From Treponema sp. (GTDB taxonomy: Bacteria > Spirochaetota > Spirochaetia > Treponematales > Breznakiellaceae): a stretch of DNA of 36,077 nt. This document shows positions 15,764-16,299 of the stretch, in pieces. The notes beneath the pieces were generated by a model that saw nothing but the letters and a program-made list of their open reading frames with translations, was not told the origin of the DNA and did no database searches. Positions within the stretch are counted from its first letter, which is position 1; each line of letters opens with the position of its first letter. The translations under genes were made by a program, and so were the position numbers. The DNA is taken from assembly GCA_031286095.1 (NCBI GenBank), contig JAITUY010000213.1, positions 1-36,077 of the forward strand, read 5' to 3'.

Positions 15764-15792
15764 AAAAAACTCGCCAGACGGTGAGTTTTTTC
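15764..15792 (-). terminator. Terminator after structured unit B (bidirectional)
   Basis: The stem ACTCGCC/GGTGAGT (15769-15786) has a four-base AGAC loop and a run of A on one side and T on the other, so it could work on both strands. It is a homologue of the two terminators at 15980 and 16159 and would end minus-strand transcription coming from unit B, before the IIA gene. Confidence 0.7.
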
Positions 15793-15805
15793 TTATATTT
15801 TTATT

Positions 15806-15974
15806 GAGCCGCACAGGATTCGCCTTCCATTCGGCGGCGCAACGTCATCGTGTTGCCTCATTACAGGCCGGGGTTATCGCTAAATTAAGAGGGGAACCTC
15901 GACCTGCGGTATAAGTTGAGGTTCCATGTGCGTTTGCCAAAGGCCGCGAAAACCCTTCGAATCCTTTGCGGCTC
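15806..15974 (-). repeat. Tandem structured unit B (candidate structured RNA)
   Basis: A 169-base unit read with the tRNA. The ends form a 17-position closing stem (GAGCCGCAAAGGATTCG with CGAATCCTGTGCGGCTC, one mismatch). Inside: GGGTTTTCGC pairs with GCGATAACCC (one mismatch), an insertion absent from unit A forms GGAACCTC/GAGGTTCC, then GCCT/AGGC, GCAAC/GTTGC and GCC-GAATGGAA-GGC. Long blocks are identical to unit A. The 3' arm differs at one base from the tRNA-Lys 3' end. Transcription is inferred from the terminator that follows; it could equally be a palindromic mobile element. Confidence 0.7.
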
Positions 15975-15979
15975 AAAAA

Positions 15980-16004
15980 CAAAAAAACTCACCGTTTGGC
16001 GAGT
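15980..16004 (-). terminator. Terminator after structured unit A
   Basis: On the minus strand ACTCGCC-AAAC-GGTGAGT (15987-16004) is followed by seven T. It differs from the terminator at 16159 only in the loop (AAAC versus GAAC), showing that the terminator was duplicated together with the structured unit. Confidence 0.8.
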
Positions 16005-16024
16005 TCTTTTGTTTTCTTCTATAT

Positions 16025-16153
16025 GAGCCGCGCAGGATTCGCCTTACATTCGGCAACCTCCTGTTGCCTCTTTTCAGGCCGGGGTTTTCGCTAAACACAC
16101 TTCCATGTGCGTTTGCCAAAGGCCGCGAAAACCCTTCGAATCCTTTACGGCTC
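16025..16153 (-). repeat. Tandem structured unit A (candidate structured RNA)
   Basis: A 129-base unit between two homologous terminators. The closing stem pairs GAGCCGTAAAGGATTCG with CGAATCCTGCGCGGCTC; that 3' arm is identical to tRNA-Lys positions 56-72 encoded 179 bases upstream in the reading direction. Interior: GGGTTTTCGC/GCGAAAACCC perfect, AAACGCAC-ATGGAA-GTGTGTTT, GGCAAC-AGGAG-GTTGCC, and GCC-GAATGTAA-GGC. Unit B keeps every one of these helices, except that its variable hairpin differs. No reading frame of interest is present. An open frame on the other strand is only the antisense of this unit and the tRNA. Confidence 0.75.
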
Positions 16154-16158
16154 AAAAA

Positions 16159-16183
16159 CAAAAAAACTCACCGTTCGGCGAGT
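16159..16183 (-). terminator. Terminator of tRNA-Lys
   Basis: ACTCGCC-GAAC-GGTGAGT (16166-16183 on the minus strand) followed by seven T lies 20 bases past the tRNA 3' end. Intrinsic terminator; first of three homologous copies. Confidence 0.85.
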
Positions 16184-16202
16184 TCTTTTGTTTTCTTCTA
16201 TA

Positions 16203-16275
16203 TGAGCCGCGCAGGATTCGAACCTCCGACCACCGCCTTAAAAGGGCGATGCTCTGCCAACTGAGCTAGCGGCCC
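16203..16275 (-). tRNA. tRNA-Lys (anticodon UUU)
   Basis: 73 bases, no encoded CCA. Acceptor GGGCCGC pairs with GCGGCTC (one G-U); D arm GCTCAGTTGGCAGAGC; anticodon arm TCGCC-CTTTTAA-GGCGG with TTT at 34-36; T arm GGAGG-TTCGAAT-CCTGC. The T stem has one G-G opposition (50-64); if the 3' strand were CCTCC it would pair fully. The segment from position 56 to 72 is identical to the end of structured unit A, so the mismatch may be a trace of sequence exchange with that unit. Confidence 0.95.
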
Positions 16276-16299
16276 ATGTACCCATTGGGATACCGTTTA

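Follow-up and report, generated by a model that had tools for sequence, protein, structure and literature searches.

Insertions of the non-LTR/SINE type are target-primed and are characterized by a precise 3' junction and by a target duplication of variable length. The small element that forms the subject of this work resembles them in both respects and also in its RNA-like interior; it differs from them in that a linked reverse transcriptase is absent and in that its 5' end is an inverted copy of the target, which would be unusual for such insertions. Bacterial MITEs and other small non-autonomous repeats (reviewed in PMC2229807) are short, non-coding, palindromic, present in many copies and flanked by direct repeats, and all of this applies to the element as well. 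In contrast to MITEs, however, the element has terminal inverted repeats that are copies of target sequence, its interior is constrained at the RNA level, a single strict class of targets is used, and the direct repeats are long with one boundary fixed at the T-loop. Integrase islands (Islander, PMC4383910) share with the element the use of tRNA and tmRNA targets, an intact tRNA and, further downstream, a displaced copy of its 3' end. Compared with these islands the element measures 130 bp, which is too short to contain an integrase gene; it has no integrase, retargets any isotype and carries an inverted T-arm copy at its left end. The RNAs CsrB/CsrC and RsmX/Y/Z of Gammaproteobacteria are similar in presenting GGA in multiple hairpin loops, and of the two relevant hairpins of the element, P4 has a loop equal to the CsrB repeat while P3 fits the ANGGA hexaloop (PMC7652899). 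On the other hand, the element has no sequence or Rfam similarity to these RNAs, provides few sites per copy but many copies per genome, is tied to tRNA genes, mobile and devoid of a promoter of its own, and its CsrA sites are predicted ones. As the defining features of small mobile repeats and of CsrA-type RNAs are either absent or beyond the reach of sequence, we place the family beside these two kinds and count it as a member of neither.

The locus is situated in a window (the whole stretch of DNA that was analysed) of 36,077 nucleotides. All of its features lie on the minus strand:

16202-16276, minus strand: tRNA-Lys(TTT), the target gene (ARAGORN; Rfam tRNA, 61.4 bits)
16160-16183, minus strand: terminator-like hairpin in the trailer of tRNA-Lys, ACTCGCC GAAC GGTGAGT followed by a T-run (sequence, alignment)
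16025-16153, minus strand: unit A, the whole element with both tRNA-derived arms (fold, homologues)
16137-16153, minus strand: left arm of unit A, GAGCCGTAAAGGATTCG, reverse complement of the tRNA-Lys T-arm/acceptor 3' half
16082-16134, minus strand: P2 helix of unit A, 16125-16134 pairing with 16082-16091 and enclosing a small hairpin and P3 (fold, pair counts)
16093-16114, minus strand: P3 hairpin of unit A, AAACGCAC-ATGGAA-GTGTGTTT, with GGA in a loop of the ANGGA type (fold, loop statistics)
16039-16081, minus strand: conserved 43-nt core of unit A, including P4 (model R1, 65.8 bits)
16052-16068, minus strand: P4 hairpin of unit A, GGCAAC-AGGAG-GTTGCC, with a CsrB-type CAGGANG loop (fold)
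16024-16041, minus strand: right arm of unit A, CGAATCCTGCGCGGCTCA, the tRNA-Lys 3' end copied from the T-loop on
15981-16004, minus strand: second copy of the trailer terminator, ACTCGCC AAAC GGTGAGT (sequence, alignment)
15806-15974, minus strand: unit B, the second and decaying copy of the element (fold; model R1, 40 bits)
15958-15974, minus strand: left arm of unit B, GAGCCGCAAAGGATTCG (sequence)
15820-15870, minus strand: core of unit B with an 8-nt insertion, its P4 loop altered from CAGGANG to CACGATGACG (alignment, model R1)
15805-15822, minus strand: right arm of unit B, CGAATCCTGTGCGGCTCA, the tRNA-Lys 3' end with one change (sequence)
15764-15786, minus strand: third, diverged copy of the trailer terminator, ACTCACC GTCT GGCGAGT (sequence)

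Units A and B had been recognized in a preliminary description as tandem homologous units, and this was confirmed at the coordinates listed: long identical blocks align, and both units fold well beyond shuffled sequences, unit A with a folding energy of -67.1 kcal/mol (z = -6.9) and unit B with one of -72.4 kcal/mol (z = -5.2), none of 200 shuffles being equally stable in either case. The 17-position closing stem, proposed to copy the 3' end of tRNA-Lys, is formed by GAGCCG(T/C)AAAGGATTCG and CGAATCCTG(C/T)GCGGCTC, and its 3' arm indeed contains the last 18 nt of the tRNA. Folding also recovered the extra 8-bp hairpin ascribed to unit B (GGAACCTC/GAGGTTCC), which is placed within the second hairpin. 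The statement that an identical terminator follows each unit holds for the first two terminators (ACTCGCC/GGTGAGT) and fails for the one behind unit B, which is similar but reads ACTCACC/GGCGAGT. The idea that the element itself carries a terminator had to be abandoned: among homologues at other tRNAs, just 15 of 104 spacers between tRNA and element contain a terminator-like structure, which rules out the terminator as a component of the element. The window terminator belongs to the tRNA-Lys trailer, that is, to the target, and was duplicated together with this trailer. When the units were used in blastn searches of plasmid and phage collections, no similar DNA was retrieved from these collections, and an origin of the units from plasmids or phages was dropped on this ground.

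Units A and B belong to an extensive family of small mobile elements, not listed before, in treponeme-type spirochaetes. With both units as queries, blastn gave matches in 41 of 149 relatives, almost invariably beside a tRNA, the type of which varied. A covariance model termed R1 was derived from the ungapped 43-nt core of 19 copies; at E ≤ 0.001 it has matches in 86 of the 150 genomes from the taxonomic family and in 34 of 296 genomes sampled phylum-wide. The latter matches belong to families f1, f3, f4 and f5 of the order and to f9, f12 and f15 of the class, and none of the matches listed lies beyond the class. At E ≤ 0.01, R1 detects up to 15 copies per genome and six in the genome from which the window stems, i.e. 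the two in the window and one each on four further contigs (C249, C135, C58 and C83). Where a tRNA was recognized next to these additional copies, it was tRNA-Ser, tRNA-Pro or tRNA-Glu. A strict core pattern run against 84,980 GTDB species genomes, one per species, yielded 31 records, all of them titled Treponema, Spirochaetaceae or Spirochaetes and mostly MAGs, the isolate codes of which resemble those of what we take to be termite-gut samples. For the element, no Rfam family, those of the Csr/Rsm RNAs included, passed its gathering threshold, either in the window or across 16 homologous loci, and relaxed E values produced just weak matches in the region of the units, far below gathering and none of them to a Csr/Rsm family; a known Rfam family is thereby ruled out. 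The element is not described in the open-access literature searched.

The element is non-coding and about 110-150 bp long. Read in the direction of the tRNA, it starts with the left arm (NNNNNTYGAA), continues with helix P2, which encloses a variable hairpin and P3, and with P4, a helix with a symmetrical internal loop and a hairpin, and ends with GGC(G/A)A, which leads into the copied tRNA 3' end. The length of the core is constant across the 19 founding copies. In 129 aligned cores 98.6% of the pair cells hold standard pairs, and 8 of the 10 pairs have changed on both sides, with 194 double-changed cells as compared to 43 in shuffles, counts that lack independence because the copies are related; the covariation score is 0.51, with 0.09 at most for slid partners. 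On the tRNA-sense strand, and with the same dependence among copies, G.T pairs outnumber A.C pairs by 32:9 in P4 and by 29:13 in P2. The interior therefore reads as RNA folded from the tRNA-sense strand, and its substitutions are those of an evolving RNA with the same polarity as the tRNA. In the helix formed by the target-derived arms the ratio is 37:36, and the inverted arms are thus unsupported as a selected RNA helix.

These counts are of direct relevance for the view that the family is a purely selfish palindromic DNA repeat of the MITE or REP type, which would be moved in trans and for which the RNA fold and the GGA loops would be by-products. The element is palindromic, non-coding and variable in copy number, some copies such as unit B are decaying, and the palindromic inserts within the elements at loci L010 and L020 would fit as well. 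Nevertheless, we hold this view to be unlikely, while granting it some weight: the interior stems accept G.U on just one strand (61 G.T versus 22 A.C), the loops are better conserved than the stems, the orientation is always that of the tRNA, and the terminal arms are derived from the target, whereas the terminal repeats of MITEs are fixed.

The inserts at L010 and L020 enlarge the respective copies to 207 and 227 nt, and the extra hairpin of unit B is comparable to them. They suggest that other small repeats nest in the loops of the element. Tandem arrays are present at L221 (genome G420), where five copies follow each other with a period of 185 bp, and at L191 (genome G078), with at least three copies and a period of about 205 bp; both have likely grown through unequal recombination.

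Of the 185 copies located in the loci fetched, 163 are preceded by a tRNA on the same strand within 700 nt, 31 anticodon types being represented, and three further copies reside 3' of tmRNA. Most of the copies for which neither tRNA nor tmRNA was called are close to a contig end or have a matching tRNA 3' end in a fragment 100-180 nt upstream. The preliminary description had offered either a structured RNA family that resembles no known one or an element inserting at tRNA 3' ends. Both alternatives proved to be valid together: the former is borne out by the strong covariation, by the homologues with conserved pairing that the covariance search found elsewhere and by the lack of any Rfam match, the latter by the position of the copies.

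Several loci merit separate mention. At L014, L015, L132, L134 and L125 the 3' half of a tRNA alone (Asn, Lys-CTT twice and Glu twice), in all cases beginning at the anticodon loop, is found about 100-200 nt upstream of the core. Introns were not found in these tRNAs and are ruled out as an explanation; the halves were probably displaced as fragments when islands integrated at the anticodon loop. In clusters of at least four tRNA-Ser genes at L207 (G008:C4) and L156 (G058:C6) the genes alternate with elements, one copy per serine tRNA. At L013, L011 and L198, elements are located between tRNA-Trp and an apparent secE-nusG operon and may also be part of the secE leader.

The right arm matches the adjacent tRNA with a per-position identity of 92-99% up to the penultimate tRNA base and of 81% at the last base, and past the tRNA end identity drops to 40-60% in the spacer. 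The right end of the element runs into a second copy of the target 3' end that starts in the T-loop (GG followed by C56-R57-A58 and so on); the left arm, for its part, is reverse-complementary to the T-arm of this target along 8-25 nt. Next to tRNAs with a TTCAA T-loop, the arms of the element read GGCAA and TTGAA. Fixed terminal inverted repeats common to all copies were not found; instead, the arms differ and track the target tRNA. Interiors that are about 90% identical reside at His, Gln, Arg, Lys, Met or Trp tRNAs, combined with arms that fit each of them, which argues that the element moves between tRNAs and that its ends are rewritten. In the element tree the isotypes are mixed and weakly clustered (77 changes versus at least 84 with shuffled labels, in a tree with few columns and many unresolved forks), and one vertically inherited lineage of elements per tRNA isotype is thereby ruled out.

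A direct repeat extending at least 20 nt past the tRNA end is present in 25 of the 85 copies scored as solo. Its boundary in the T-loop is fixed, the other boundary varies from about 20 to 70 bp past the tRNA, and the tRNA is left intact. At L013, L217, L026, L016 and L245 the repeat stops shortly before the left arm, and the sequence beyond is unrelated. At L140, L171 and L228 it reaches the beginning of a second, decayed copy, which means that tandem duplication can account for part of the direct repeats. A subset of the solo copies thus exhibits a target-site duplication, which is unusually long and one-sided. Altogether, we are highly confident that the element is a mobile structured-RNA element targeted to the T-arm of tRNA and tmRNA genes.

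Alternatively, the copies could be cassettes of site-specific recombination. The copied tRNA 3' end would then be the att core at which a tyrosine recombinase acts, crossover would take place in the T-loop, and the mobile circle would consist of tRNA 3' end, spacer, left arm and element. The block that is identical between tRNA and element ends near the tRNA end, as it does in the integrase-made islands of tRNA and tmRNA genes (PMC4383910), and the tandem arrays and the many targets would likewise be compatible with such cassettes. However, a fixed att core cannot give rise to similar interiors with target-fitted arms at unrelated isotypes, and restoration of the same att core at each integration site was not found, interiors of roughly 90% identity carrying different isotype-specific arms. 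Furthermore, the direct repeats of several solo copies cross the spacer and end just before the left arm, the inverted left arm would have no role in the reaction, and a linked recombinase gene is absent from the loci read. We consider this explanation improbable. Little probability is also left for a host-domesticated element in the tRNA trailer that would serve tRNA maturation or stability and not CsrA. It would agree with the invariable position behind tRNA or tmRNA and with conservation of the copied tRNA 3' end while the spacer decays, but the element is patchily distributed, related genomes containing between 0 and 15 copies, most tRNA genes are without it, and the arm helix is free of RNA-level constraint. 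Very improbable, finally, is a guide-RNA element resembling the omega-RNAs of TnpB/IscB, with the interior as scaffold and the 18-19 nt of the tRNA 3' end as a guide that is re-acquired upon each insertion and leads a nuclease to empty tRNA genes: a precise 3' junction is followed by a conserved flank of guide length that matches the empty target beside a fixed GGTTC motif, but the supposed guide would be masked, its first 8-25 nt being paired with the left arm, no nuclease gene is linked, and there is no Rfam match.

For a mobile element targeted to the T-arm, a single insertion would leave the order tRNA, trailer, left arm plus element, tRNA 3' end, trailer. We propose that it could spread by replicative insertion through strand-switching at the T-arm, be it target-primed copying or template switching with snap-back, and that a putative enzyme for insertion would be supplied in trans. 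To our knowledge, no enzyme has been described that generates a duplication starting in the T-loop together with terminal inverted repeats copied from the target. The insertion signature may be new in kind.

Promoter-like sites, defined by three mismatches at most, were detected upstream of 29 of 57 tRNAs. The spacers between these tRNAs and the element contain such sites in 3 of 57 cases as compared to 6 in shuffled spacers, and we rejected a promoter belonging to the element on this basis. Promoters upstream of the tRNA and not in the spacers, taken together with the scarcity of spacer terminators mentioned above, render co-transcription the economical reading, and transcription starting at the tRNA promoter likely reads through into the element, which would then belong to the 3' trailer of the tRNA. 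In the window, the terminator between tRNA-Lys and unit A would limit read-through, such that co-transcription would be partial there.

The GGA loops of the element raise the question of CsrA binding. In CsrB, the repeats CAGGA(U/A/C)G reside in hairpin loops, and selection experiments with CsrA (SELEX) resulted in the consensus RUACARGGAUGU, most loops having six bases and most ligands at most four contiguous pairs (PMC7652899). The P4 loop of the element is CAGGANG in 149 of 185 copies, and GGA-bearing length variants bring this number to about 160; it is CACGANG, without GGA, in 20 copies (about 11%), and the CAGGANG motif has been lost in unit B of the window. In P3 the loop mostly has the form C(A-N-GGA-T)G, where N is free, and it contains GGA in about 116 of the 134 best hairpins, so that the P3 and the P4 loops each possess GGA in about 86% of copies. 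Per element there are 5.9 GGA and 4.2 A(N)GGA motifs, that is 1.5-fold and 2-fold the 3.9 and 2.1 counted in dinucleotide shuffles, and the opposite strand contains 0.44 GGA per element. The stems of P3 and P4, with at least six pairs, are unlike those of most SELEX ligands. As the core is conserved outside GGA too (internal loop GGAATGA/GAANGGA), it may serve another role.

In the genome of the window, csrA directly follows fliW. Its product presumably matches E. coli CsrA at residues L4, R6 and R44. Within the phylum set the element occurs in 33 of 267 CsrA-positive and in 1 of 29 CsrA-negative genomes, with CsrA being nearly universal in the phylum, and CsrA is accordingly encoded in 33 of the 34 element-bearing genomes; one genome of the same order (G431, 99% complete) has one element match and no CsrA match. 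Co-occurrence is uninformative as a test because CsrA is near-universal. In six genomes csrA and an element are found on one contig at a distance of about 4.5-9 kb (G022:C30, G008:C18, G032:C99, G088:C35, G030:C2 and G044:C82), which may be due to a tRNA-His/Arg locus being syntenic with the flagellar operon that contains csrA.

As our leading functional proposal, we tentatively suggest, from sequence features, that CsrA binding could be a main function of the element RNA. Once released, the RNA would offer at least two GGA loops, the ANGGA hexaloop of P3 and the CAGGANG pentaloop of P4, and more GGA in internal loops, roughly six GGA per copy in all. The hairpin loops would bind CsrA, and arrays of copies would act as a CsrB-like sponge with an output that tracks tRNA transcription. 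In Leptospira, homologues of csrB and csrC are not known and FliW is the likely CsrA antagonist, and a CsrA-like non-coding RNA has been reported for L. biflexa (PMC8668096).

On balance, we favour the interpretation that units A and B are tandem mobile non-coding elements giving rise to a structured RNA that is co-transcribed with tRNA and plausibly serves as a CsrA sponge. More speculative is the proposal that they represent a so far unrecognized class of bacterial mobile RNA element, SINE-like in nature, which would rebuild its ends by copying the T-arm and, whether domesticated or serving itself, would function as a CsrA sponge driven by the tRNA. If true, relatives of the treponemes would hold many-copy RNA candidates for a CsrB-type antagonist expressed together with tRNAs, and a SINE-like bacterial element would link the Csr system to tRNA transcription. 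Whatever its function, terminal inverted repeats that are remade from any tRNA or tmRNA entered and a duplication beginning within the T-loop and leaving the tRNA intact constitute a notable insertion signature. The covariance model of the core is ready for use in annotation, and the element accounts for puzzling tRNA-tail repeats in treponeme genomes.
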